Of a stretch of DNA of 64,000 bases, positions 32,305-51,198 are shown piece by piece. Positions within the stretch are counted from its first letter, which is position 1. The number at the start of each line of letters is the position of its first letter. Below the pieces are notes generated by a model, which did no database searches, was not told the origin of the DNA, and was given only the letters and a program-made list of their open reading frames with translations. The position numbers and the translations under genes are program-made. The stretch is from assembly GCA_029834535.1 (NCBI GenBank), contig JAQMWT010000670.1, forward strand, positions 186,001-250,000, in the 5' to 3' direction. This stretch comes from Chrysophaeum taylorii (taxonomy: Eukaryota; Sar; Pelagophyceae; Pelagomonadales; Pelagomonadaceae).

Positions 32305-35012
32305 CTCGATCGCATCCGACACTACTCAACTCGCGAATTGGCACGCGCCAATAACTTCATAGCGTACCAAATCAATTTTCTTTTGTCTTTGTCCCCTGAC
32401 CTATGCTGTGATATCATCGCAAATGCTATTCCAGCTGGAACATATCATACAATTTATAAACACTTGTGTCAGCTTGTTTGTGACTTGCGTATATTAACGC
32501 TATCACCATCGTTTGACCCTGATCACGCTTCTCTAACCAAAAACTATAGGTCAACCTTCTTCACAAATATATTCCCAACAGATACATCCTTAACATTACA
32601 CCAGAGTTCCATTACAATGTTCTACATCTCCAATAAAAAACTCTTATGTTGTGATACTATCACTTCTAACCACGAACTTCCTTCTTGTCATATTGATTTA
32701 GTAGCTCGTGCCTTCCTCTCTAATACCTCATCCGCAGATATATCATCTCCTACTAAAGAAAAACAAATACCCCTTATAACGCCAAGACAGCTCCATGAGA
32801 AGCATGCGCCCTTCGATAAGAAAGTCCATGCTAGGGGCACACTCGCATTTCGAGATGCGCAACAACGAGCTACTAACTTTCACAACATTCACCATTCCAG
32901 TGATTCTCAAGCCATAAAAGCTGTTCAGGTTATTGCCAGTCCTGGACACCACCCATCTGACGTACCCTACCGTAAGTTCAGTGTGGATTGTACAATTCAT
33001 AAAAAACGCTTTCCTCACCAACACCACCTTATCAAGCAACCATCATTCAAAAAAATTTTTCAACCTGGTGAAGCTTGGGCATGTGACGGTGGTTACGTCT
33101 CTGTGCTCTCGGAATGGGGATCCTTTCGACATATTATTGTCTTCAAGTGTCTCATTTCTAAATTTCTGTTAGTGTACTTTTGTCGTAGCACTAACTCCAG
33201 CGAATTTTGTAACGCCCTTGAGTTTGTCCGCAGTTTTTGCTCTACTTATGTTCATGTACAACTAAAACAAATTTATTGTGATTCCTTTAAACCCTATTTA
33301 TCCCAGCATGTTACAACCCCCTTCCGTGTGGAACACGGTATTAATATGTCCGCGTTCCCCCCTTACTTACATGTCTTTTATCATGAAGTCGAAGCCGCTG
33401 TTGGTCACATAGCCACTGCCGCGTCTACACGACTCAGGCATATGCTTAATGTATCCTATAAAGGTCACCCCCTAACAGATCCGGCACCACACTACCCGTG
33501 GGCTGTTATACATGCTATCCAATCATATAATCTCCTCCCTAACGTTTCCCTCGAACGTATTTATAATAAAGTCCTAAGCCCCCAACAAGTTTTGTTAGAC
33601 CAATGTAATGTTCCCCAACAAGACTACCTCAAACCTTTTGGTTCTGTTTGTTATTTGCATTTGGAACCTAACGAATTTCATAAATATGAACCCCGATGCC
33701 GTCCCTACATCTACCTATGCGGTGCTAACGTTATAAATCCTTTAATAACACCCCATGTTAATCATTTAGCCGATGTTGTCCTTAATCCTGAAAACGGTCA
33801 AGTCCGTGTTTCCTCTAAACTGACTTTTCCCCATCTTATTTCTAAATCTCCTCCTGATTATGAACAACATCCACCTCCCGCACCTTCACCCGACATTCCC
33901 TTCTCTGTTCACAGCACCCCCAATGATGCGACGCAGAGGGGGAATGCTATGCCTACCGACACTGACGATGAGAGGGGGACTCCTTCTTCTCATCTCCATG
34001 CTCCCTCTCCCGCTCCCGCATGTGCTCCAGCTGCTCCTGCGCCCGCTACTTCCACCACCACACCTACATCTGAAGTGTCTCCCGACACTCTGCCACCTTT
34101 ACCATCTTATCGGTCTCTCTATTCCCAGGATGTCCTCCGTCTCACCCGTGGTCCTCATCACCCTCAGCCTCGTCGCAAAACCAATCTCAAGGATGTTCTT
34201 ATTCGTATTGCTTCGCCTACTGTTGCCGCTTATAAACAAGCCGGTGGTACGCTTGCCGACTTCAAGTATGACCTATCCAAGCAGTACATAACCTTCTGCG
34301 ACCCCACCCTCCACTCCCTTCATATCGCTCATGGCATCCACTGGACGGCTATACCTCCAGAGGGGGAATTTACACCATCCCTTCATCACCATGTTCACCA
34401 AGCGATTTCACAGTCCTCTTCAGTTATGTGTCATAGGAGCCATAGCCACCCATCGCCTGATGCTCCTCATGTCCACTTCTACGACGACGTCAACCTTGCC
34501 GATTTTCACCTTCCTCAAGCTCTCGTTCATTTAATTTCTGAACATGCTCACGCCTTTCAAGTTCCTCCCGCTCAATATGCTTATGCTTTGGTCACGCCCC
34601 ATTCTATTTTGGATCATAATGACGCTTCTTATGGTGCTTCCGAGCCTCATCTCTCCGCCATCGAAGACTATATCACCGTGCAATCGCATTACATTGAAGC
34701 CCACCTTGGTGATGCTCCTCTACTCGTCGTTCACCTCTTCGAAGATCCCGATCACGCTCATCTGCCAGATAATGTCGCTTCTTACGCAATTACTCATCTG
34801 ACGACGACTCATGATCCCAGCACGGTTGGTTCGGACGAATACAAGATTCAAGCCAAAGATATCAAAATTGATGAATATGAATTGAACTGCCTCAAAGGTC
34901 TCTCAGACGCTGATCGCAAAGCGTATGTTGCTGCCATCTCCAAAGAGATTTTTGACATTGTTAAGTTTGGCTGCTTTAAACTAGCGCTGCCAATGGTCAA
35001 CTCGACCAACCT
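32305..35012 (+). CDS. AT-rich copia integrase and start of RT, truncated
   Basis: Open from 32305. The integrase core shows EAWACDGGYVSVLSEWGSF (first D, about 33070), KQIYCDSFKPYL (second D, 33275) and HEVEAAVGHIA (E, 33390), a D-D-E arrangement about 36 residues apart for the last pair. It continues with PFGSVCYLHLEPNEF (copia C-terminal type) and a Pro/Thr/Ser-rich linker at 33880-34100. It ends within the first RT block (AISKEIFDIVKFGCFKLALP), after which the frame runs into an unrelated SINE fragment. The integrase would insert element DNA into the genome. Confidence 0.8.
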
Positions 35013-35015
35013 TTC

Positions 35016-35873
35016 GGCGCTCCTCGTCTACAGGCCCGTGATTCCGGACTGGCTCCTGTCGGTCCGGCCTGGCTCCCATGCTCGGGAGAGGTCTGAAGTT
35101 AGTTAGTCACACACACTTCTCAAGGGTGCAACCACAGTCGTCGGTACGAAACGCGAGGCGACGAAACAAAGCCAGTAAGTCTTGAAGCACGATGCACGTA
35201 GTCAAATGCGAGGACACACTCGAGGGTACGTCGGATCAGGTACAATCCCGAGCAACTTGAACTCCGGTGATGAACGTGTTGAGGAAGTTCGCAAGATCAT
35301 CAATATGGTTGCACACCAGTGAATGTAGTGAAGCAATAGCGGATGGAGCTACGCGGTTCCCGTGGCCCATGTAGACATCTGGAATGCGCTTGTAAAGTCG
35401 CGTGAAGTTCATGTCGCGGTTTTCATGGATATCAACGTTGTTGCTTGACGCGAAATTCTCCTTCAGAGCAGCGAGATGCTGAGAAATTCTTCTTCAGAGC
35501 AGCGAGATGCTGAGATGCTAGTCCAAGGATCGTTGGTCGAGATAATGTGATCGACGGTAGAGATGATCATGTTCGCAAGACGACGTGTCCATTGGCGGGG
35601 GAAAAAAATGTCACTCACCGCTGAAGGCGCCAAGTGTTCGCGAAAGCTTGCTAGCTTGAATTTCGATCGAGGACATGTTAGACGACAACGAACCGAACAC
35701 GGAGCAACGAACTGAAGCCGAGGAGGAATCGCCACGAAGTCAAGCAGAGGCTTCACCGTAGCGAACACCTGCTGCCATGTGACAAATGGAATGGGGCGTT
35801 ACTCTAGCGATAAGGGAATGACGTAGGGATACTGGATACGTGGTGCAGGGGTAAGTGTCATAGCTTCCTCACA
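35016..35873 (-). mobile_element. Copia 1-type 5' end, copy B (SINE tail, gag start, LTR)
   Basis: 35016-35106 is the last about 90 bp of the SINE. A gag start on the minus strand lies at 35463-35700 and the LTR at 35778-35873. The primer-binding site is CTGCTGCCA just before the LTR. It is followed by the same AACGC flank as copy A. Confidence 0.8.
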
Positions 35874-37099: not shown

Positions 37100-37362
37100 T
37101 CACGAAGTGAGGTAACGAGCACGAAGCCGGAGGAAGGAAGGAGCTTCCGTACTGCGGGTGAAGATATCGCTAAGGTTGTCAAGGCGGGGAATGTGTTGGA
37201 GATCAATGATGTGGTTGCGATGATATTCGGCGGTGCTGTAAAAGCGAATATCAATATGGTGGGTGCGCCGCGTGAGACATTGGAGACGGACTTGGGTGAC
37301 GGTGGTTCTGTTATCGACATACATTGGTACCGTGTGACGAGGGAGATCAAAGTCATCAAAAA
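37100..37362 (-). pseudogene. Copia 2 RNase H C-terminal part
   Basis: Encodes DDFDLPRHTVPMYVDNRTT through RLDNLSDIFTRSTEA to the stop near 37100. It joins with LLALYAATAELSRLLKLF at 46715-46760 once the gypsy element and one copy of AAAAA are removed. Confidence 0.8.
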
Positions 37363-37684
37363 TATGGCGGCACAGAAAAACCTTCCCGACCCTCGGGTGA
37401 CAAAGGGGGTACTCGCCGACTCGTCCTAGACCTCACTGAACGAGGAAAACACGGACTCGGGGTCGGATATGCTCGCCACACACCTTGCTCACGCCCACCA
37501 AGCCTCTCAACAAGATGGAGAGATGGTATATGATAGCAAGAATGCTACAAGAATACTGCAAGAATGCTTCTCACAAGAGAGAGGTATGATGTCACTAGGA
37601 AGGTAGGGAAAGGCGTCCCGTTGAACGGGTATCAAGCCTCGAGAAAGGGAGGGTAAGCCTTAGCGGTCAGGAGTTGCCGCCACA
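37363..37684 (-). repeat. Gypsy 3' LTR, 322 bp
   Basis: On + it starts TATGGCGGCACAG and ends GAGTTGCCGCCACA. The 10-bp ends are inverted repeats with one mismatch. The pol stop codon lies inside it (37667-37669), so pol overlaps the LTR by about 18 bp. Confidence 0.88.
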
Positions 37685-38600
37685 GGACTCCCCTGGTGAG
37701 AACACGAGCTGCCCTCCGCGAGTCCGGCGAGAAGCACGAGCCTTGGCTGAATGAGCGTCTCGGGAACGAATCTTCTTGTAGACACGTTCAACGACAGGCT
37801 CAGGAACGCGTCCACCACGCAAGGTGAACTTAGGAATCAACGCATCGATCTCATGCGGGGCGAAGTCGGTGACACAAGGAGCGGTACTGTTGTTGACCTT
37901 GGTCTTGTCGGTGAAACTGCGACCGTCCACGTCCTTATATTCCGGCTTAAGCTTGCGAGTAGAGAGATGTGAGGTAGGCTTGTAATAAGAAACCTTGTCG
38001 TGGGGACCAAGATCAGCATAGAAATGCGGAGCGACCCGATCATTCACAAAATCATAGGGTTCATAAACTTCAGCGACGTAAATCTTCTTTCGCCAATCGG
38101 ACCGTTTGTTATCCGGAATCCGAAAGATAACGAACTTACCATGCTTGTAATCATCCCGAAAGGTCTCCTTGGGCTTGGGCACAGCTCGATCGACCACTGG
38201 AGAAACCATCACAGGGGTAATCTGGCTAACATGAACACAACGGCGTTCGGGAGGAGAATCAAGAGACTCAATCCTGTAAGTGACCGTGGACAAGCGTTCC
38301 AAAATAACGAATGGACCGCGCCATTCCGGTCGAAGCTTGTTATGAAGAAAAGGGATGTAGAGCAGCACATGTGAACCTTCTTCATACTCCACATCAACAT
38401 GGTCCGCATTATAGGCGAGACGTTGTTTACGAAGAGCCTTCTCGCGAGCTTCGTTCACCGTAGCGGTATAGAACTTCAGCCTCTCGCGAGTCTCTGCCAC
38501 AACATCGGAGCGAGTTTTCGGCAAGCGGCGGACATCAAAATCCATGATCGTGTAATCGGTTGGCAATAAAGGCTGCCGGTTAAGACGAAGCATGAAAGGT
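37667..38600 (-). pseudogene. Gypsy pol C terminus: GPY/F region and extra domain
   Basis: WRGPFVILERLSTVTYRI is the GPY/F-like module that follows many gypsy integrases. It is followed by VHVSQITPVMV and then about 150 residues with YKHGKFVIFRIPDNKRSDW, KKIYVAEVYEPYDFVND, VAPHFYADLGPHDKV and a basic tail (KKIRSRDAHSAKARASRRTR). Its beta-rich look and position recall the chromodomain-type targeting modules of other gypsy integrases, but no chromodomain signature is seen. The name is left open. Confidence 0.75.
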
Positions 38601-38705
38601 GAGATCTGAGTCCCCGGAATAAATTTGCGATTGTAACAGAAAGCAATGTACTCCGCGAATTCGGGCCATTCCGTGATCTTGCGGTTTTGAAGGCACGCAC
38701 GGAGG

Positions 38706-38981
38706 AAAGCCTTGATAAAGCGGTTGACCCTTTCCGCAGGATTAGCTGAGCATGATGCGGAATCGTGGTACTATACCGAACATTGAAAAGATGACAAAAC
38801 TCTTCCATCAACTTGTTGACGAACTCTTTCCCATTGTCGGTACAAAGCCTTGATAAAGCGGTTGACCCTTTCCGCAGGATTAGCTGAGCATGATGCGGAA
38901 TCGTGGTACTATACCGAACATTGAAAAGATGACAAAACTCTTCCATCAACTTGTTGACGAACTCTTTCCCATTGTCGGTAC
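38706..38981. repeat. 138-bp tandem duplication inside gypsy integrase
   Basis: 38706-38843 and 38844-38981 are near-identical. 138 is a multiple of three, but a one-base loss beside each copy (AGCTGAGC for AGCCTGAGC) already breaks the integrase frame. Absent from copy A. Confidence 0.85.
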
Positions 38982-40370
38982 GAATCCTCTGAGGTAGATA
39001 ACTTTTGAGTAATATATTCGCGACAAAAGACTCGAGGATTGACTCGGCAGCTCGAGGATTGACTCGGAAGTCTTATGGTGTAGTACGTCAAGAATCAAGA
39101 AATGAGAAAATGGATCAAAAAAGACGATGAGATATGTCTCGGGACCAGCACTGGGCAAAGGTCCAAACAAATCCATACAAAGGACGACACAATCACCATC
39201 ATACACCGGTTGCTGAAGCAGACCTGCTCTCTTTGGTTCAGGCGTACGAGCTTTCTTGCACACTATGCAACCAGCAATGTAAGCACCCACCTCATTAGAC
39301 ATATGGGGCCACCAAAAACGTTCAAGTATCGACTGCACTGTACTTTGACGACCCATATGACCACCATTGAGAGGTGTGTCATGGTACAATCGGATGATGC
39401 GCGTCCGTAAAGTTCGGGGTGCGACTATCATCGGGTGCAAGTCGGGTGCGGCACGGTAGAGAACTCCTTTCACCACTTGATAGCGATAATTGGCTCCGTA
39501 CCGACGAAGAGAATGGCCCTGAGCCATGCGATAACGAATGTCCTCGCAAGTAGCATCAGTGATCTGCTCTTTGGCTATCTCTTCCAAAGTCAAATTATCC
39601 GGAATCTTGTCGATGTACTCTTGGTAATCATCGGCATCACGGAAAATACTAGGCTGGGTCTGCAGTCGTTGCTTCTGACGTTGTTTCGTAGCATGAGACG
39701 TGACCAATTGCATCGGATCATCGAGGTCTTCTTCCTCTTCCTCCACAGGCAACTCAGTCGTAACAAACGACAGAATGACATGGCACCCAGGTAAAGGTAC
39801 TCCTTCATCATCAACAGAACGAGGGAGTTCTTGGCACACTAGATACGCGTGGTTCAAGGGTTCACCAAACTCGTCCGTCTCGATGACATGATCTATAGGA
39901 TTGCGAGAGAGACAGTCAGGGATGCTCATTCCCGGCGACTTCCCTGGCTTGTGTCCCAATTCAGCATCAAAATTGGCGGGCCGCATCGCCCATCGAGCCA
40001 ACTGCCCAGACGAGTGCTTCGCCTTTCGTAAAAACGTCAAGTTGCGATGATCTGTTTCAAGGATCGTCTTGTGACCTTCGATATAAGAGCGGAAATGCAC
40101 AAGAGAAAGAATAACAGCCAGTAGCTCTAGCCGGCGAGGCTCATAGTTCCGCATCTCTTTCGGCACAGCTCGGCTCCAATACTCAATTACTCGTTCCTCT
40201 CGTGTCACCTTGCCGGTTTCGTCCTTGATTTCCACGAGCTGAAAAAGATACGCACCTAGACCATCCTTGGAAGCATCCGAGCGGATCTGAAAGGGAAGAT
40301 CGTAGTCAGGATGATAAACTCCCCGAGATCCACCAAAGCTTCGATGATCGTGCCCCATGCCGTTTGGCAC
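38946..40370 (-). pseudogene. Gypsy RNase H and integrase N-terminal half
   Basis: FQIRSDASKDGLGAYLFQ, RRLELLAVILSL and ETDHRNLTFLRKAKHSSG mark RNase H. LYHDTPLNGGHMGRQ and CIVCKKARTPEPKR mark the integrase HHCC finger, and CMDLFGPLPSAG holds the first catalytic Asp. A duplicated CTCGAGGATTGACTCGG near 39035-39070 shifts the frame before the second Asp. A lost base near 40325 separates it from the RT frame. Confidence 0.85.
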
Positions 40371-41745
40371 TCAGGCGTCCACTCAAACTTAACGCCTTCA
40401 AGACACAATCGCCCAAGCGGCTCCACAATCTTCGAATAATTCTTCACATATCGGCGGCAATAGTTGCTCATGCCAATGAAAGATCGAATCTGGGTCTTCG
40501 GGGACGTATTGGGCAACGTACCGGGAATCGGCATCTGCTGCAACGCTTCTAACGTCTTGGGATTCGGCTTCAAGCCCTCCGGAGTCGAAATATGTCCCAA
40601 CAACTCGATTTCATCCTTGAGGAGGTGGAACTTCGAAGTTCGTCTACTATATCCTCGCTGTGCTAAATGGCACAATACTTCAATAAAAACTTGCAAATGT
40701 CGATGGAGTTCATCCGATCCCATCATAATATCGTCGACAAACGCGACCAAGTCCTTATACATCCATGTGGACAAATCGCTAGCCATCTGCTTACAAAAGA
40801 GAGCTCCTGCTGTTTTTACTCCTAGAGACAAGCGCAAGAAACTATGGGCTCCAAGTGGACTAACCATCGTAACGGCGTCCTGAGCAGCGGCGTCCAAACG
40901 TAGGTTATGATAACCCCATCGAATATCAATGCACGTCCGCCAACGGCGCATGGCAAGAAAAGCCAAAGCATCATCTTGACGAATATTCGGCCAACTGTCA
41001 CTGACCAGCTGATCATTGAGCTGACGCAAGTCAACTGCAGCACGAAAAGCATTCGACGTCCCGGCCCCTGCTCCCTTCTTAGGCAGCATCAGTACAGGGA
41101 ATCCCCACGGAGAGTTCGCCGGTCGGATGACTCCATCGCGACACCACTCAGTGATCTGCTTTCTGAGACACTCGAGCTTTGCTGGCGTCAACCTATAAGG
41201 CGTCATCTTGATCGGTCGTGGGTTTGCGTCTTTAAATCGTAGAGAAACCGGTGGCGAGTCCACGGGTCTCATAATCGGATCAAAGAAAGCCCACGCGTAT
41301 TGCACGCAATGGCTCAACATCATCTTCGCATCATCATCCAGATGCGGGTTGTCGGGAATTCCCAGATCTCGAACAACCTTTTTAACTTCTTCCTTCGTCG
41401 GAATTACGACTTTCATCGCATCATTGTCCTTGACGTGCTCGGGAGTCTGCGGTAACGGTACACCGTCCGCATCGCGCGGCGCATCCTTCCATGGCACATC
41501 GAACTTTTCTTCGTATTTGAACCTCACCTCAGGGTGGCTCTTATTGATCTTTTCACCTTTGACGCGCACATTCGGCTCGCTCCTTACTTTCGGCTCCTGT
41601 TCAGGTTCAGGATCCGGCGGAACGTCCACTTTTGATTGTCGGGGGGCCCCAGCAGAAAAAGCATGAGCCGTCCCCGGCGCATCTGTTGGAAGCGGAAGCA
41701 TAGGAACTCCTGGTGGTTCCCATTTAGTGGGATCTGGTGATCATC
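40330..41745 (-). pseudogene. Gypsy reverse transcriptase
   Basis: Contains an N-terminal Pro/Glu/Lys-rich linker (PDPEPEQEPKVRSEPNVRVK) and then RT blocks: PYRLTPAKLECLRKQI, VIRPANSPWGFPVLMLPKKG, FRAAVDLRQLND, CIDIRWGYHNLRL, PLGAHSFLRLSLGVKTAGA. The active site is LVAFVDDIMMGS (FVDD). LLGHISTPEGLKPNPKT follows. All catalytic residues are present. The frame is joined to the methyltransferase frame only by a -1 shift near 41745 and to RNase H by a shift near 40325. Confidence 0.9.
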
Positions 41746-41889
41746 CTTTGACACCCACTTAACGACACGAGTACGCGTATTTAACAGCGGAATCTCTACG
41801 TGACGAAAGGTGGTGTCGGAGATTCGCAAATACTGCTCAAAGGATCGATCTGTCGGGCTCAACGCGGTCGGCAGGACTTCACCACTTTG

Positions 41890-42770
41890 GCGGAAACCTC
41901 TGGTCACGGAGTTGTGCAGATCGACTGCTAAAATCGCAAGAGTATCTGGAGGGACGACAGACGCTAAATGTTTGAACGAATCTGTCTTAGACAAGCTAGC
42001 CCAATCATGATCCACCGGCATCGTGAGCAACTCGGCCGTCATCTTGAGAGTCAAAGGCTGAGTGTCCGAGCGATGCGGTCCCAAACGAAGAGGAACTCGC
42101 GTAACGGTGTAAGCCGTATCTGTTGCTTCTCGGGACGAGCCAAGATTATTCAGCTGGAGAAGGTGGCGTTCATGAGCATAACCTAAAGCTGCAGCAATTT
42201 TTTGTTGCATGTTCACACATGTCTTCGGAGCCTCTTGCAAGTGCAGTGGGTGACTGGAAACCAACAATCGCACGCGAGAGCTCATCAGAGTAGGTGTGAT
42301 ATCATGAAAATTGACGACGTACACGTAAGGGTGTAAGCGCGCTATATACGAAATAATGGACGCCTCCTGTTCAATCAGCCACATCATGAAGCCAGCCATT
42401 TTGCACAGCTTCATCGTCCAGTTAGTGGCCGTAACACCCTTGCCAACATCTCTGGATGTCAAGTTGCAGAGTGCTGAATGAACGCAGGGCGGAGACGCTA
42501 TACACATCGACGATGACCATTCCGCTTCAGGCAAATAAGCCTTGATCAACCGGAGGGTCGAGTCATATCGTCCAGAGCGTGTGCTGGACCACAGGTATCT
42601 TCGGAAAATTCTTCTGATGAACCTTGTTGGCAGCTGTTGAAGAGTCAAGAGCAAGGACGACTCGAAACGACGTCCCGCACAACTCGTTCGCTCGTTGCAG
42701 TCCTAAAGTACTTCCTCCGGCGCCGCTGAAGAGCATCACAACCTTGCGATACGTGATCGGCACCCAGTGG
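41890..42770 (-). pseudogene. C5-cytosine DNA methyltransferase domain of the gypsy element, one frameshift
   Basis: In element order: motif I KVVMLFSGAGGSTLGLQRA (about 42735), motif II RVVLALDSSTAANKVHQKNF (42650), then a +1 frame change near 42590, and motif IV SMCIASPPCVHSALCN with the catalytic Pro-Cys (42470-42510). Motif VI-like MMWLIEQEAS lies at about 42360, motif VIII PTLMSSRVRLLVSS at 42270, motif IX-like QPLTLKMTAELLTMP at 42045 and motif X-like KHLASVVPPDTLAILA at 41950. The full set and spacing identify a DNA cytosine-5 methyltransferase. It replaces no other domain; RT follows directly. ENV of motif VI is altered (IEQ), while motif VIII keeps the usual S-R-V-R-L pattern. It could modify element or host chromatin, but this copy is broken. 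Confidence 0.88.
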
Positions 42771-43960
42771 ACCTTTTCAAACCTTCGGCGAATCTCGCAT
42801 TCTGTAACTTCTCGGCATTTCTTTTCCTCCTCGTCAGTTCGTCGGTCGAAATCGTCGTTACCGAGCGATTCTTGACGAGAATTCTTCTTCTTATCGGCAG
42901 AAGGAGACGCCTTCTGCACTGAGCTCAAAAGCATCAGTTCGGGAGCCGCATCGCCTTGAGTCAGATGGCTGGCGACCGAAACAGTGAATGATAGGTTAGC
43001 CTTGTTAGATTCGGCTTCACCATCCTTCGTTAAATCGTCGACCGTCTCAGCATTCAGCTCGTCATCAAAACGAACAATATCGCCCAAAGCAAGGACTTCA
43101 CCTTGAGTGATCACGGTCGGCACATCCTGGGTAGAGGATATCGCCACTCGAGCTGCGAACTTATCATGATCCTCAGGAGAAGAACACATTCCATCGACTA
43201 CCCCGAGTTGCTCGTACCCAGAAGACGTAGCAACGAAAACTTGCCCAGTTTCCACGGGCTCTGAAAGAGCGACTGGCACGCAGTAGGTGCGCCCAGGCTC
43301 GACCTTCATCGTGCGCGCAGCATAGGCTATCACTTCATAGGCATCGCTGTTCGAACTTTGAGAAGGCGTAACTGGAGGAACTCCCCAAGTCGTCGAAGCT
43401 CCCGCTCGTTTCGGCGGTGGACGCTGGAGGTCTTCAATCTTGCACAAGCGAGCGTAGACTCGGTTCTCAACTGTGCTCAGGCTTTGTTGCATCGCATGGT
43501 GCTGTTGCCCATAAACCTGAACTACCACGGGATTGCTCTCGTCATAAGTTGTTCTGAACGTCAAAATCGGAGAATCTACTCGTCGATCCTGCACCTTTAA
43601 CTTCTTGCGCCCGTAAGCGACTTGTGTGCGTAGAAACGCAATGCGATTCCGCGGGTAGTCCACTATGGCTCCAAACACCCGAATATCGCGCGCTCCCAGC
43701 AAAATAGATGATTAGTATCGGCCACAATAGCAACAACTGGAACGGCTACGTCGTCCGCAAGCGCAATCCGCAATGCAACCCATTTGTGGATAGTCGTTTT
43801 GTTCAATCCTGACCCATACAAAGTGCGCTCGACTGGAAGATCGCCCCGGTCATGGATGATGCTATCCTTTTCCAGTTTTCAACCATCCCACGACAAATAT
43901 AAGAGACATCAGCCATTCCATCCACGCACAAAGTCGTTGCAAACGTCGGCCCGTCTCGTC
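42771..43960 (-). pseudogene. Gypsy protease and protease-methyltransferase linker
   Basis: A retropepsin-like region lies at about 43640-43940: LCVDGMADVSYICRG stands where D-[ST]-G-[AS] is expected, and LLGARDIRVFGAIVDYPRN is the typical closing strand. Frame changes near 43720 and 43860 break it. The linker (42771-43600) has a beta-rich part (RTYCVPVALSEPVETGQVFV, ITQGEVLALGDIVRF) followed by a charged helix (RTDEEEKKCREVTECEIRRR) just before motif I of the methyltransferase. Confidence 0.65.
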
Positions 43961-44154
43961 GTCTATAAATATGACCAACTATAACGTAAGGGTACCAGGG
44001 TCCAGGCAGCCGATGGTGATGAGGTATTGCTCGATCTTTTCCCCATCGCTCGGCGACAGTGCAGTGTGATGACATCGTATCTCCGGTTTCGCATCGCCCG
44101 GCATCTGCATCGTCACCGCTGCTATATCTGGCGTTCTACATCTCGCCGCTGAAT

Positions 44155-45910
44155 CTATATTGGCGCTCGCCGCTTCGGCTGCTTCCTCATTCCCAGTTTC
44201 GCTGACAACAAATTCTGACACTTCTCAATCGGAGGCACATATATCTCCTCCTTTATCTCTTCTGGCAATCGTCGTTTCTCGTCCATCAAATCGGACATTC
44301 CCGTCAACTTCTCCTCCATCGGCGCCGCTGTGGTCTGCTCTGCTGCGACCAAAACTGTATCGGCTAGAACATCGGCTAAAACGGCTAAAACGGTCTAGGA
44401 AAAGAAGACGTCTTCCCCGACGTCAACTCAAAAGGTCTAACGTCATCATCGTGAACTGCCCTGCAAGACATGCACATTGACGAATGGGGGGACACTGGAA
44501 CCTGCGGCATGGGTTCGTCGGTCTCCGAATCTGAGTCTTCCCAGTAGTGCGGAGAATCCCAAGTAGCATCTGACATTGCTTCCACGTACGATGTAGAAGG
44601 CCACCGAACGATCCGAGCGTTGGTGGTATGTTGCTCCTGTTGCAATCGCGGGCCGGTTGGCAGCCGGAACGTTCGCAGTGGGACGGGGTATGGCCGGGGG
44701 GCGAAGACGGAAGGTTATCGACGAGTTGGTTCTCAGTCACATCGCGGTCTCCTCGTCGCATGGCGACAAGCTTGATTGTCACTCTCCGCCGACCGACCTT
44801 TCGGCGCTCCTCGTCTACAGGCCCGTGATTCCGGACTGGCTCCTGTCGGTCCGGCCTGGCTCCCATGCTCGGGAGAGGTCTGAAGTTAGTTAGTTAGTTA
44901 GTTGCAATCGATGGCTGCTCGTTACAACGACATCGGCAACATCATCGGAGACTCGGGCAGGGCGCGCCGTCGGGTAAAAGACAACCGCCGACATTGGCGG
45001 CGCGTCGCATAAAGATTGGAACGCGAAAGTTGCGCTCGAATGTCCCGAACTATCCTGATATCTGCCTCCGTCATACTCGTCATCGTAATGTCGATGACGT
45101 CGGCGCCGGCGCGAATTGCGACTAGAGCTCCGGTGACGGCAAGGACTCGGGCTGCTTTGAGCAGTATGGGCTTTTCGATCAGGGCTCTGGCTTCGATGTC
45201 GGCGTGACGATCGTCTAGAAGGTGATCGTCCGTCTCGCTGTCGTGTAGAAAACGACGTAGTATCCTTGATGCCTCTGACTTCGCTCACCATGGTTGCCAT
45301 TGTGGTTCCAAGATCGGTGAGGGCCGTTTGAATTTCATTAGGAGGCTCCGATCCGTGCGTGGCGTTCGCATGAGATGCATCATCACGCTTCGCCCAATCG
45401 GACCGCGATATGGGCTGCTTCTTCTGCTTACGAATTCGCTTCCACATCGCATAGTAGTAACGATCCGGATCGCGGTTGCAAACTACGCGACTTTCGTGTT
45501 CATCTTCATCATGGGTGGTCCAGAAGAACCCACAGTGCTTGCACGTCTTCTTGCCCCACAGAAAAAAAGATCTCGTAAGATCAGCGGATCCGTATTCCCA
45601 GACGGTTTATCCGCATCTTGCTGGCAAAACGCTCAGCTAATCGCTCATTTTCGCGACGTCTCCGCTCGAGGTCTTCACGAAGTCGACTTCGGGCTGCAGA
45701 TCCGCGCTCAATAGTAACACGCTTGCCACGGTCCGGAGTCGTTGGACTCAACGGCGAAAAAATGGCAGTATCCGGAGGCACATCAGGGGGCACGTCAGCA
45801 ACGTCGACTGCCTCGGCCTCTCTTAATTCACCTTCCTCGTGGCCTATCTCAGGGGCGGCGGGAAGAACTGGAGGAGATTCTTCCTCACGCACGTCTGCGT
45901 TTATCTCCAT
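44155..45910 (-). pseudogene. Gypsy gag, split by a SINE
   Basis: Starts at 45910 (MEINADVREEESPPVLPAAP). An acidic region is followed by a charged helix (RLREDLERRRRENERLAERF), then a small zinc-finger-like motif CKHCGFFWTTHDEDEHESRV with a following Cys (45480-45550). An Arg/Ser-rich segment (SPSRRSSRRHRSQSPDRK, 45100-45200) resembles nucleic-acid-binding tails. A SINE at 44649-44901 cuts it, and acidic and Pro-rich pieces continue to about 44155. Frame changes occur near 45585 and 45450. No capsid domain could be named. Confidence 0.6.
44639..44910 (+). mobile_element. SINE-like retroposon copy 3, 5'-truncated, 9-10-bp target duplication
   Basis: The body is 44649-44901, starting CGGGCCGGTTGGCAGCC and ending (TTAG)n, between copies of GTTGCAATCG (44639-44648 and 44901-44910). 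About 115 bp of the longest form is missing from the 5' end, as expected for target-primed reverse transcription. Confidence 0.9.
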
Positions 45911-46323
45911 ACTATATCAAAATATCGATCAAGAATCTCGAAACACGTCCGGATCCGATCACTCGAAGTAATTCACGTTGATTCCAACAACGCTATCTGT
46001 CGCTGTAAAAACAGCACTCGCGGAATTCCAATCCGCTGGCAATTCAAAAATGCCCGTGGGTAGCGATCCCACTCGCTAAACAGCTTCCACCGTTCAGCTA
46101 TACCAAAATCAATTCCCGGGAGAATGCGCTGCGATTTCCAACTCGCACGCGTGTTCGTCGTCACTCGGATCGTACGAACACAAACAACGTTCACGTATAT
46201 TCTCAACGCAAACCGGTCCAATGGAACTCCGTGTGCTTGATCAGGGCGCATGTACAAATCCGGACCACGTAATACAACACGTACGGCAGCACTCGCTCGT
46301 CGGCGACCGATGTAGTCGCACGA

Positions 46324-46709
46324 TCTCGTGTACTCCACCACGTATGGCGGCACAGAAAAACCTTCCCGACCCCCGGGTGACAAAGGGGGTACTCACCGAC
46401 TCGTCCTCGACCTCACTGAACGAGGAAAACACGGACTCGGGGTCGGGTATGCTCGCCACACACCTTGCTCACGCTCACCAAGCCTCTCAACAAGATGGAG
46501 AGATGGTATATGATAGCAAGGATACTACAAGAATACAGCAAGAATGCCTCTCACAAGAGAGAGGTATGATGTCTTTAAATGTCGACTGCTAAGAGGGGGG
46601 TTGTGGAGGTATGATGTCACTAAGAAGATAGGGAAAGGTGTCCGTTGAACGGGTATCAAGCCTCGAGAGAGGGGGGGGTAAGCCTTAGAGGTCAGGAGTT
46701 GCCGCCACA
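46324..46709 (-). repeat. Gypsy 5' LTR (46343-46709) and primer binding site
   Basis: 367 bp: the 322-bp LTR plus a 32-bp insertion with its 13-bp duplication. In element sense the LTR is followed after CG by TGGTGGAGTACACGAG (46340 to 46324), a TGG-starting stretch suited to pair with a tRNA 3' end; the tRNA is not identified. Confidence 0.8.
46561..46618. mobile_element. 32-bp micro-insertion with 13-bp direct repeats
   Basis: GAGGTATGATGTC occurs at 46561-46573 and 46606-46618 around a 32-bp insert that starts TTTAAATGTCGACTGCTAA and ends GGGGGGTTGTG. The empty site is present in the 3' LTR at about 37580. The same starting sequence occurs at 51292. Confidence 0.75.
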
Positions 46710-46714
46710 AAAAA

Positions 46715-49560
46715 GTTTGAGAAGCCGAGAGAGCTCAGCAGTAGCGGCGTAAAGAGCGAGCAATTCAGCTTCAAAAGAGGAGCGGGCGAGGAGGTACTGC
46801 GAGCGTGAGCAGTAGGCTATCATAGAGCCAGCAACAAAAGCCAGTAGTGGAGTGGCGGTCATCAGGGTCGTCGGCTCAGCTGGAGTCAGAATAACCACAA
46901 AGACGAAGGGTAGAATCGCGACCAAGAAGAAGAGGGCAAGATGTTGAGAACCATTGAGATAACGGAGGGTATGAGATAAAGCGTGCCAGTGGGGTTTACC
47001 AGGATTGTGTGTAAAACGCGCACACTGATTGACGGACCAAGTGATATCAGGGCGAGTCATGACGGAAATAAATAAAACACAGCCAACAATACGACGAAAA
47101 GGGATGCGAGCCATGAAGACGTGATTGGGAGAGCCAGGTGCAGGACAATCAGCCGCAGAAAGATGAAGACCTTTGGGAGCGGGAGTCAGTTCTGGTTTAC
47201 TGTTGATGAAACGATGTTCGGTAAGGATTTCACGGATAGCATGGGATTGGTCGATAGCGAGCGTGCGACGTGCGCGATCACACGTAATGCGGAGACCAAC
47301 GTAAGTGGTCAGATCAAGCTCGTTGACGTCAGTGAAGGTTCGGAAACGGAGGAAGAAGGCTTGGTAATGGCCAAGGCAATGACGAGGGTGCGCCACGAGA
47401 AGATCATCAACGACAAGAACGAGACGTAGGACAACGGTAGAATTAAGCACGAGCTTGTAACTGCAAATGTCACCAGATCCGCGGACGAAGCCACAGTCAT
47501 TGACGAGAAAGCGTTCCAAATAAAGCCACCAATTACGACAAGCTTGTTTGCAACCATACCAAGAGCGACGGAGCTTGTAAACGATTTTGGAACCATCGGT
47601 GGGTTGGCGAGGAGCATAGCCTTCGGGTGGCCAGACATAGATGTCTTCGTCAATGGGAGCTTGGATAAAAGCGGAGCTGACATCTAACTTATGCAAATCC
47701 CAGTCGTGAACAGCAACAAAAGTGAGAAAGAAACGGATGGTGACGATGTTGGCAACTGGCGAATATGTCTCGTGATAATCAATGCCGTGAACCTGGGTGT
47801 AACCGCGGACAACGAGGCGATCCTTGCGCGATTTGAAGCGGCCAGATTCATACTTCCTGCGGAGGACCCACTTGAGAGTACATATGCTGCCAGAAAAGGT
47901 AGAGGGAACGCGAACAACATCCCAGCAACCAAGCTGACAGAGGGAATGATATTCTTTGGCGATGGCTTGCAACCAGCCAGGACGCTCAGGATATGTCGGA
48001 GCTAAAGCTTCGCGTAAATGTGTGGAAGTGATAGCGCCATCGTCAATGTAAGAATATTGAGAGGTTTCTTCGGAAGCAGAGTAATGAACATGGACAGCGT
48101 GGGGATCAACAATGGTATGAGCTAGACAAAGGGGAAGGAAGACATAATGAACTAACAAACGAAAGGTAGAATAAGAGACATACAGAGAGTGACAGGAGGA
48201 AACAGAATCGACATTGCGTTGTGGACAAACGCTAGAATGAAAGTTCGATGGGTTGTGAGTTGTTTTTGTTGGTAGTGTGCTTTGGTCGACTTTGCGCGGT
48301 CGGCCCCGTTTGGCTCGACGTAATGGTGCACTTTTCGTATTGTCCGTTGACGATTGTGGTATTGTTTCTGGGGTGATCAGTCCCGATAAGGCCGGCTCCT
48401 GAGCATCAAAAACAGGAGACAAGGGAGCAACAGCAAAAGACAAACGAGGGGCATAATAAAATAAGTCAGGGAAACGAGAATCTACAAAATTAGGAAGGGG
48501 TTGGGAGGACAGGGACTTACGCATAGCAAAGTTCTCGTCGAAAACGACGTCAATAGAAGTATGGATGACGGGACCAGTGGAGCGTTGAAGCAATATGCGA
48601 TAACCAGGTCCGGCAGAGGGATACCCAATGAAGATACCTGTTATAGCTTTGGTAGGCCATTTGTCGCCAGTAAGAATAGCAGTAGGACAGCCCCAAACAC
48701 GAAGAAAATCGACACGGGGGAGAGTCTCATGGAGCATTTCATATGGCGTCATGTAACCAGGGTTAGAGGCGTTTGGCATGCGCTCGGAGAGGAAGTCAGC
48801 CGTTTCCATGGCCCAACGCCAAAAATCAGGTGGACGGTGCGCATGCACCAAAAGAGTGCGAGTAATATCAGCCGTTGCGCGATGAGAGCGTTCCACAACA
48901 CCAGAAAAAGCGTGCGCCTGTGAAGTTTTGGACTGAGCAGCAGGAGCCCGTTTGAGGGCGATATTGTTGCCCAGACAGAAGGTTTCGAATTGGCCCATAA
49001 GAGATCGGTCACGATCGGTGTAGATGAGGGCGATGCGATATCCAACTGGGCGAACGACAGTAGACAGAAAAAGTTCGAGTTGACGAGCGTTCGTAAGTGC
49101 ATCGTGGCGGGGGGCAAAGTAACGTGTGCGGCGGCGCGTGTGATCATCAACAAACGTAAGGATGGCGCGGTCTTGGTAGATGAAAGAAGGAATACCGGTA
49201 AACATGAGATCTGCGTGGATAATAACATAAGGAGCAACGGCACGTGGACGGGACAAAGGCTCGGTGGCAGGAAGAGAGGTGGAAGTGGAGGCATGTGCTT
49301 TACGTTGGCCAACATGCGCAGCATGCATTTTACCTAGAGCACAAGCAGGACAAAAGAAAGAGACGCGGAGCTGGGGAAAAGCGGTGCGCCAACAGCGAGA
49401 GAAGACAAACGCCGAATATAAGGGGGGCTGTAGTGACCAAGATGAGCATGCCAAATGGCATAATTGAGTTGAGTGCGTTGAGACACAACGGGAAAGCACA
49501 AGGGTCATGTACGCGAGGGCAAGAAGAAAATGCCACAAAAGGTAAAACGAAGTCCGCATA
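46715..49560 (-). pseudogene. Copia 2 pol: integrase, RT, RNase H start
   Basis: Integrase core with VIIHADLMFTGIPSF, ALIYTDRDRSLMGQFE and HAFSGVVERSHRATAD (D, D, E). A long linker holds the Lys/Arg-rich RRAKRGRPRKVDQ. RT has LKWVLRRKYESGRFKS, KLDVSSAFIQAPIDEDIYVW, LRLVLVVDDLLVA (VDD active site) and SVMTRPDITWSVNQCARF. RNase H begins SSFEAELLALYAATAE. An HHCC finger (WHAHLGHYSPPYI, then CPACALGK) is split by a frameshift near 49400. A short frameshifted stretch near 46870-46930 disturbs RNase H. The gypsy element ends the frame at 46709. Confidence 0.85.
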
Positions 49561-51198
49561 GGGCGCAGCGGTCGTATTGCCGATCCAACAGACGATCAAA
49601 AGAAGACCACAGCGACGAAGCAGGGGAATAACGTGATGCGTCTGACGGTGACGTAAAATTCGTTGCGGATGAGTAGGGCCAACATCCTGAATCGTATGAC
49701 AATCGTAACCAACTTCCTCAAGGGCATGATCCGAGAGAATCCGTTTGTCACCAAGGCCAGGAGAGATAAGGGTATGCGGGAACACGACGTGGATGCCATG
49801 AGGGGCAGAAAGAGTGGGTGCAGGAGAAGGAAGACCACGATTGTCAAGAGGGCCACTTAAAGGGAACGTCAAGTGAGCAGTGCCAGAGCCAGAAACAGAG
49901 CCAGTGCCGATAGCCGAAGTGACTGAGTGCTGTTGAGTGTTGTCAAGGTCAGTGAAACCAGCAGGGGAATTGAAGAGATTGACGTTGGCGCCTGTATCGT
50001 AGACAACGAGGCGAAGATTGTTGCAGTGCAGGTAATCGCGCTCACGGGCGGTGAGCAGAGCGCTAAGGGCATTGGTGGATGAAAGGACGTGGTGAATGGA
50101 GGGGGAGATGGAAAAAAGATGGAAATTGAAAGACGGATAGGTGGGTGGAGAAAGAGATGAGTCAGGAGGGGATAGGGCGGTGGAAGGCGGGACAGAGGGT
50201 GTGGTGGAGGGTGGCAACGCAAGAAGCGGCGGAGAGGGTTGAGAGGAAGGCAAAAGTGGGATGGGCGCGGAAAGATAGTATTGGTAGAAGGGTGGACTGG
50301 GGCGAGGTATGTATTGGGGATTGGATCGATATGGGGATATTGTTGACCAGGGCGAGGGCGGGCTGCAGCTTGGGAGTGGAGATAGCGAAGGCGTTTACGA
50401 CAATCCTTCATGTGATGGCCAGGAATACCACAAAAGTGACAAAGGTCAGTAGGGCGTGGGCGCTTGCAATGGAAAGAGCCACGGGAAAATGGAGGCGAAG
50501 GCCTGGAACGGAAAGATGGGCGAGGGCTGGAACGCTGTTGGGAGCGCAAAGCATTGAGACGATGAAGGCATTTATCAGAAGGATGGTTGGTACGACCGCA
50601 AATGTTGCAACGTTCACGACGGCGGGGACCCTCACGGAGCGTAGCATGGACAAGCGCAGACTTGGTCTGAAGATAGTCGAAGACTTTACTGTTGAGGCGA
50701 TCAACGAAACCATCATATGTGCGCAGTTTAGGGTCGAGTGCAATGAGATCCTTAGACAAGATCTAGTCGGGGATTTTTGTCTGAAGCAATTGCAATGGAA
50801 GAGCGTCAGGGAAATCTTGATGATGCCGAGCAACTTGAACTAACTAACTAACTAACTTCAGCCCTCTCCCGAGCATGGGAGCCAGGCCGGACCGACAGGA
50901 GCCAGCCCGGAATCACGGGCCTGTAGACGAGGAGCGCCGAAAGGTCGGTCGGCGGAGAGTGACCATCAAGCTTGTCGCCATGCGACGAGGAGACCGCGAT
51001 GTGACTGACAACCAACTCGTCGATAACCTTCCGTATTCGCCCCCCGGCCATACCCCGTCCCACTGCGAACGTTCCGGCTGCCAACCGGCCCGCCCGGGAG
51101 GCGAATAGGTGCCAACCTACGCCGGGAGGAACTTGAACACCGGTGATGAACTTGTTAAGAAAAGACTAAGTTCATCGATATTGTTGTATACCAAGGAA
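49561..51198 (-). pseudogene. Copia 2 gag and protease
   Basis: Two zinc knuckles of the C-x2-C-x4-H-x4-C type are readable: CNICGRTNHPSDKC (about 50610) and CHFCGIPGHHMKDC (50430). They are followed by a Pro-rich tail in one frame and the aspartic protease LVVYDTGANVNLF (about 50000) in the overlapping frame. Upstream gag (DGFVDRLNSKVFDYLQTK) is interrupted by the SINE at 50841. 51139-51198 is a further gag piece before the break. Confidence 0.8.
50832..51138 (-). mobile_element. SINE-like retroposon copy 4, 5'-truncated, 9-bp target duplication
   Basis: The body is 50841-51129, reversed, with (AACT)n at the low-coordinate end, between AACTTGAAC (50832-50840 and 51130-51138). The empty site is seen in copia 1 gag at about 21930. 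About 80 bp of the long form is missing at its 5' end. Confidence 0.9.

Follow-up and report, generated by a model that had tools for sequence, protein, structure and literature searches.

The window, a stretch of 64,000 nucleotides from Chrysophaeum taylorii, a pelagophyte belonging to the Stramenopiles, contains a Ty3/gypsy LTR element of 9347 bp on the minus strand at positions 37363 to 46709, in agreement with the original prediction of a gypsy element of about 9.3 kb with LTRs. The 5' LTR (46343-46709, minus strand, 367 bp) starts with TGTGGCGGCA, ends with TGCCGCCATA and contains a 45-nt extra stretch compared with the 3' LTR (37363-37684, minus strand, 322 bp); the two LTRs differ by 12 transitions and 3 transversions over 321 aligned sites (K2P 0.049). 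The target duplication that had also been claimed may correspond to the AAAAA present on both flanks (46710-46714 and 37358-37362), but a homopolymer, here a 5-bp A-run, is weak evidence of one.

Read along the minus strand, the element consists of a gag-like region, an aspartic protease (PR)-like region, a linker, a C5-methyltransferase (MTase)-like domain, reverse transcriptase (RT), RNase H, and integrase (IN). The RT frame (40256-41740, minus strand), with FVDD at about 40741, scored 43.2 bits for RVT_1, and the frame for RNase H and the IN zinc domain (38946-40370, minus strand) scored 89.1 bits for RT_RNaseH and 63.8 bits for H2C2. The C-terminal part of IN (37667-38770, minus strand) scored 32.6 bits for Integrase_p58_C and 23.7 bits, under the cut-off, for SH3_Tf2-1; an exact 138-bp tandem duplication is found in the IN region of this copy (38706-38981). 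The RT-RNase H-IN order, the gypsy-type domains, and the direct LTRs identify the element as Ty3/gypsy. The gag-like fragment (44890-45606, minus strand), which was read by eye and includes a Cys/His-rich stretch, is similar to the second frame (1508-2167) of another copy, L070, and gave no match in a Pfam search at E up to 1. The region at 43640-43990 (minus strand), with VDGMADVSYI followed by ARDIRVFGAIVDY, is taken here as aspartic-protease-like by motif; it had no protease match in Pfam, and its triplet is D-G-M (43905-43925), not D-[ST]-G. When 25 gypsy loci, some of which are the same copy, were searched with the open pattern VD..ADV, D-G-M was found in 24 and D-R-M in one. Because the surroundings of this triplet are PR-like by eye only, the family was assigned from RT, RNase H, and IN.

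The MTase-like domain occupies approximately 41800-42785 on the minus strand, with boundaries taken from unbroken copies, and a linker (42786-43640, minus strand) separates it from the PR-like region. The window copy is decayed, with the domain running partly in frame 42563-43711 and partly in frame 41584-42702. The original prediction had extended the domain over 41890-43700, which has to be corrected, since the remainder of that interval is linker and PR. Its placement of a C5-MTase-like domain between PR and RT holds: the domain lies at the same place in family copies, and the RT with FVDD follows it.

Copia-like frames lie on either side of the gypsy element, at 32305-35106 on the plus strand and 46692-50394 on the minus strand, the latter with an RVT_2 match of 116.4 bits in 46692-49595. 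A 105-bp stretch of the gypsy element (44790-44894) recurs with 99% identity at 35003-35107, at the end of the former frame, and is perhaps a fragment of another gypsy copy.

Copies of the family in the genome

The C. taylorii genome that we searched comprises 70.8 Mb in 697 contigs; the published assembly is reported as 71 Mbp in 702 contigs, from Nanopore and PacBio data (PMC10366177). With the MTase domain of L069, an unbroken copy, as the query, at least 122 matches were obtained, of which 102, with 85-100% identity, make up subfamily B and 20, with 78-81%, make up subfamily A, which includes the window copy. A genome search for intact copies, as had been proposed with the original prediction, was thereby productive: 95 of the 122 matches listed are stop-free inside, and 36 of these lie in frames of at least 1000 aa. 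Merging matches within 1.5 kb in the union of three lists gave at least 202 loci on 168 contigs, a count that may include doubles, as contigs C10 and C297 look near-duplicate. In this contig pair, and also in C25 and C521, matches occur at near-identical positions with equal identities, as if they were haplotypes or assembly duplicates.

In L069, the MTase, RT, RNase H, and IN are in one frame (2993 aa within the locus and 3067 aa in all), and in L070 the PR-like region, MTase, and RT share one 1286-aa frame, indicating that MTase and RT would be read together, as in a Gag-Pol polyprotein. The natural reading of these frames is that the MTase is part of the polyprotein, as had been anticipated.

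An MTase match was located just upstream on the same strand in at least 55 of the 87 RT matches listed; this is a lower bound, because only the best candidates were scored and two loci that carry the domain (L052 and L055) fall among the 32 without such a match. Copies lacking the domain had been named beforehand as the observation that would speak against the prediction, and some do exist: motifs I, IV, and VIII are all missing in five of the 20 RT loci L049-L068 (L050, L054, L057, L064, and L068). However, the three of them that were read look truncated or internally deleted. In L050 and L057, other sequence replaces the region upstream of part of the MTase, and in L064 an internal deletion takes out both PR and MTase. 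Ancestral absence of the domain was rejected for these three loci, where the loss looks secondary. The C5-MTase-like domain is a trait of this gypsy family.

No homologue of the gypsy MTase was found elsewhere at E up to 0.01 among 4287 candidates (proteins of about 707-2250 aa), and pattern searches of viral contigs and prokaryote genomes gave no near relatives. Elements of this kind are often omitted from gene sets, and such searches are therefore weak evidence of absence.

Relationship, conservation, and footprint of the methyltransferase-like domain

A check against PF00145, which had been suggested for the window, gave a divided result. The window frame 42563-43711, with motif I near its end, scored 19.6 bits, below the cut-off of 22 bits, and the frame 41584-42702, with motifs IV, VIII, and IX/X-like, had no Pfam match; all five domains cut from unbroken copies, by contrast, passed (26.9, 26.0, 28.7, 26.4, and 26.1 bits). 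For whole frames, the scores were 23.5 bits in L070 (above the cut-off) and 18.9 bits in L069 (below it). The PF00145 alignment of the cut domains is limited to residues 14-70, corresponding to motifs I to III. A profile built from 43 DNMT2-like proteins gave 33.5-37.3 bits for three gypsy domains and no more than 3.7 bits for 500 shuffled domains, and its alignment spans motif I to the SPPC cysteine of motif IV. When the L069 frame was divided into 17 overlapping segments of 328 aa, the two segments with motifs I-IV scored 37.3 bits with this profile, and the next-best among the matches listed scored -0.4, inside the shuffle range. The C-terminal half of the domain past SPPC was aligned by no profile tried. 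NCBIfam dcm gave 18.3-18.5 bits in three of three gypsy domains against a cut-off of 100.65, a value that the DNMT2-like (53.9) and DNMT5-like (71.6) proteins of the host also do not reach. In hhalign, the gypsy MTase aligned to the host DNMT2-like protein with a probability of 11.5% and an E value of 0.0026, and no alignment was obtained to the DNMT5-like locus L002 or to the MTase of the copia element described below. Three PDB sequence searches gave no Dnmt3 signal for the gypsy domain. AlphaFold reached a mean pLDDT of only 34.2 with family copies alone, and with DNMT2 sequences added to the alignment the model was confident only at about residues 11-100. On these grounds, the N-terminal half places the METHYLTRANSFERASE domain firmly within the C5-MTase superfamily, and the catalytic details are tentative; the homology to C5-MTases detected by profile comparison is firm only for motifs I-IV.

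The motifs of the window copy lie in order on the minus strand: motif I, FSGAGGSTLGL, at 42698-42730; motif IV, SPPC, whose cysteine is putatively catalytic, at 42484-42495, profile-aligned in unbroken copies; a motif VIII-like RVR at 42268-42276; and a motif X-like DLHNS, read as a motif only, at 41908-41922. The claim that the MTase motifs occur in order is borne out for I and IV and, at the motif level only, for VIII and a IX/X-like stretch, with RxR and HNS in the right order, but the motifs are spread over two frames, and ENV (motif VI) is missing. None of the 15 aligned gypsy domains has ENV, and hhalign against the host DNMT2-like protein left ENV unmatched in the gypsy domain. An uncertain candidate for the missing motif is EQE at 42364-42372 (minus strand), which is the same in L010 and L069. 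Motif I (FxGxGG) and motif IV (PxC) were each found in 40 of 49 gypsy copies, the other nine being not covered or changed; IEQE was found in 35 of 39, RxR in 42 of 43, and LHNS in 43 of the copies in which the respective pattern matched, counts that presuppose the motif and, for RxR and LHNS, concern the half aligned by no profile.

The domain has conserved blocks that the two subfamilies share. The SAM motif (FSGAGG), SPPC, and RxR are identical in both, and L010 and L069 share 97% identity at residues 14-48 (motif I) and 92% at residues 89-180 (motif IV to VIII/RxR), compared with 61-63% in the C-terminal parts of the MTase. Between L069 and L070, dN/dS (NG86) was 0.058 for the MTase (309 codons; dS 2.4, near saturation), 0.159 for PR and linker (397 codons), 0.386 for the MTase-RT linker (76 codons), and 0.036 for RT and the following region (502 codons). 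Comparison of L069 with five subfamily-A domains, including L056, which is the same copy as L070, gave 0.052-0.068 for the MTase, and ten pairs within subfamily A gave 0.06-0.47 at dS values of up to 0.17. The values between subfamilies are rough, because dS is near saturation; at about 0.06, they indicate that the domain is selectively maintained, and strong purifying selection on the gypsy MTase is shown at the level of codon comparison. Chance resemblance, a nested insertion, or an error in the assembly would be in keeping with a window copy that is broken and below the Pfam cut-off and with a genome-wide PF00145 search in which none of the 57 matches listed lies at one of the gypsy-MTase places listed. 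We consider such an origin negligibly probable, since the domain takes the same place in two subfamilies and at many loci, with open frames and under purifying selection; the shuffles (no more than 3.7 bits), the selection, and the copy number led us to reject it.

We also examined whether the copies bear traces of CpG methylation. CpG is not depleted, the observed/expected ratio being 1.16 (window element), 1.28 (L069), and 1.22 (L070). Pairwise C/T differences showed no CpG-specific excess: the CpG/CpH ratio was 1.03 over 122 pairs, 1.18 over 169 pairs, and 1.15 in a single pair. A crude count of 87 CpG-context against 184 other transitions had hinted at a CpG excess and was dropped, because it was badly normalised and the pairwise count disagrees. 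Among the gypsy copies, in both sets (L010-L028 and L050-L068), C/T differences were highest in the CpT context, not in CpG; this CpT peak is not seen in the one copia pair. As judged from these base counts, there is no footprint of lasting CpG methylation in the gypsy copies. Methylation in other contexts, marks that are only transient, an RNA target, or a lack of catalysis would be compatible with this.

The last of these would apply if the domain had lost catalysis, or had been put to another use, and its MTase fold were retained to bind nucleic acid or SAM or to help Pol assemble. The missing ENV, the recognition of motifs I-IV only by profiles, and the lack of a CpG footprint all fit such a fold, but FSGAGG, SPPC, and RxR are unchanged across subfamilies, and the most conserved blocks, which surround motif I and span motif IV to RxR, would be needless for a mere scaffold; we therefore regard this explanation as somewhat improbable. 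An RNA target would apply if the domain were a DNMT2-like RNA m5C enzyme that acts on the element RNA or the tRNA primer and not on DNA. The nearest solved relatives of the gypsy domain in PDB sequence searches are DNMT2 proteins, the tRNA C38 methyltransferases, at a best E of 0.037-0.16, which is not significant; no CpG mutation footprint was observed; and RNA methylation was considered for SymbioLINE-Dnmt by de Mendoza et al. (PMC5890265). However, the likeness to DNMT2 is weak and confined to motifs I-IV, and the profile used for the comparison had been built from DNMT2-like proteins, so that it gives no fair ranking against other C5-MTases. An RNA-specific enzyme is accordingly an unlikely explanation.

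A second methyltransferase element, proposed function, and known systems

A second MTase family, of the Ty1/copia type, is also present in this genome and was absent from the original prediction. The genome-wide PF00145 search gave 57 matches listed, of which the first two are L001, the best locus of the genome, whose product shows full identity over 360 aa with the C. taylorii protein CTAYLR_008533, and L002 (65.4 bits), which we named DNMT5-like from its domain layout. Six others that were read, L003-L008, are all members of a single further element family, located together with L071 and L072 on contigs C4, C120, C64, C326, C683, and C564. The MTase frame of L004 as the query gave at least 79 matches, with 68 candidates scored. 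Of the 57 PF00145 matches listed, 29 overlap the 68 compared matches of this frame. PF00145 scores were 38.6 bits for L004, 46.3 bits for L003, and 36.7 bits for L006; TLPCQ occurs in six of six loci and ENV in five, L007 having ENA. In L006, a PR-like LIDGGA precedes the MTase in one frame; the protease triplet of this locus is D-G-G. On one strand of C120, the L004 MTase is followed downstream by the integrase-like L071, with 25% identity to the copia IN of the window and an rve score of 13.4 bits, under the cut-off, and by the RT frame L072, with 140.7 bits for RVT_2 (cut-off 31.6). Matches of the copia MTase and IN with equal frame length and phase were found on C96 (1952 aa), C314 (1868 aa), C523 (1327 aa), and C328 (1119 aa). 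This arrangement of PR motif, MTase, IN, and RVT_2 identifies a Ty1/copia element with the order PR-MTase-IN-RT.

For the copia MTase (175 codons), dN/dS was 0.101-0.151 in 13 of 15 pairs, all with dS above 0.4; the other two pairs, which are the closest, had values of 0.228 and 0.297. Among proteins of solved structure, M.HhaI is nearest to it in sequence, at a non-significant E of 0.045, and no homologue was found at E up to 0.01 among the 7997 candidates with the most shared words. The gypsy and copia domains gave no mutual alignment and no detectable similarity. They appear to be independent captures, with a very old common origin possible.

The order of the domains, the high copy number, the open MTase-RT frames, and the strong purifying selection are shown. 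The second MTase family, with its domain placed between PR and IN, hints at an advantage common to both elements and suggests that such domains help them to copy themselves. The reading that we prefer, with a probability of about 0.5, is that a gypsy family took up a C5-MTase domain into Pol, after the protease and linker and before RT, and uses it to methylate its own nucleic acid around reverse transcription. The MTase would be made within Gag-Pol, either released or left joined to RT, and would be carried in the particle, where S-adenosylmethionine-dependent methylation of the element's own nucleic acid could take place during or just after reverse transcription. The target would most likely be the new cDNA and less likely the element RNA or tRNA primer, and the new copy could then reach the nucleus already marked. 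Alternatively, the enzyme might act in trans on host chromatin, in counter-silencing or in marking integration sites; the DNMT5-like gene of the host raises the possibility of a methylation system that the element could disturb, but the place of the domain in Pol beside PR and RT favors a role in the particle, and we hold action in trans to be very unlikely. Extending self-methylation in the particle to both elements, we tentatively propose, as a possible but doubtful scheme, that two unrelated LTR superfamilies in one alga independently captured different C5-MTases downstream of the protease and that methylation in the particle is a recurrent, selectable step of replication, with the gypsy active site, without ENV, perhaps working on RNA, an RNA-DNA hybrid, or the tRNA primer. 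Such targets would fit the missing CpG footprint.

That retrotransposons carry a relative of a host silencing enzyme is a puzzle. Here, two apparently independent captures next to the protease, each under purifying selection, occur within a small genome for which Nanopore supplied part of the sequence data, so that self-methylation by LTR elements, and any benefit that it brings them, can be tested directly. In our searches of the open-licence literature we found no description of LTR elements with an MTase from a pelagophyte, and no word starting with "transpos" occurs in the main text of the C. taylorii genome paper (PMC10366177).

The architecture is known in kind from KnitGypsy-Dnmt3 of the charophyte Klebsormidium nitens, reported by de Mendoza et al. 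in 2018 (PMC5890265). That element likewise combines a Gypsy-type Pol with a cytosine MTase, has no introns, and exists in many copies under purifying selection, with a reported Ka/Ks below 0.2 (PMC5890265). It differs in that its domain is a Dnmt3 with key residues kept and its repeats are described as arranged like those of DIRS, whereas the Chrysophaeum element has plain LTRs and a stramenopile host, and its domain lacks ENV and gave no Dnmt3 signal in the three PDB sequence searches. SymbioDIRS-Dnmt3 and SymbioLINE-Dnmt of Symbiodinium are also retrotransposon-borne C5-MTases, and the SymbioDIRS domain shares its ORF with RT; unlike the present element, they are DIRS (tyrosine recombinase) and LINE elements of dinoflagellate hosts, and SymbioLINE is reported to be CG-depleted (PMC5890265), whereas the Chrysophaeum gypsy copies are not. 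According to the same report, DNMT domains from retrotransposons established CG methylation de novo when expressed in yeast, although the SymbioLINE domain tested did not (PMC5890265). The text of the 2018 report covers Gypsy, DIRS, and LINE elements, and it names Copia as without the domain in Symbiodinium (PMC5890265). The copia element of C. taylorii resembles the gypsy element as an LTR element with a C5-MTase after a PR-like stretch and under purifying selection, and it differs in being Ty1/copia, in having PCQ and, at five of six loci, ENV, and in being nearest to M.HhaI. As far as our searches go, what is new relative to these systems is the host, the divergent type of MTase, and the two apparently independent captures beside the protease; a documented example from a stramenopile would join those described in 2018 from dinoflagellates and a charophyte.
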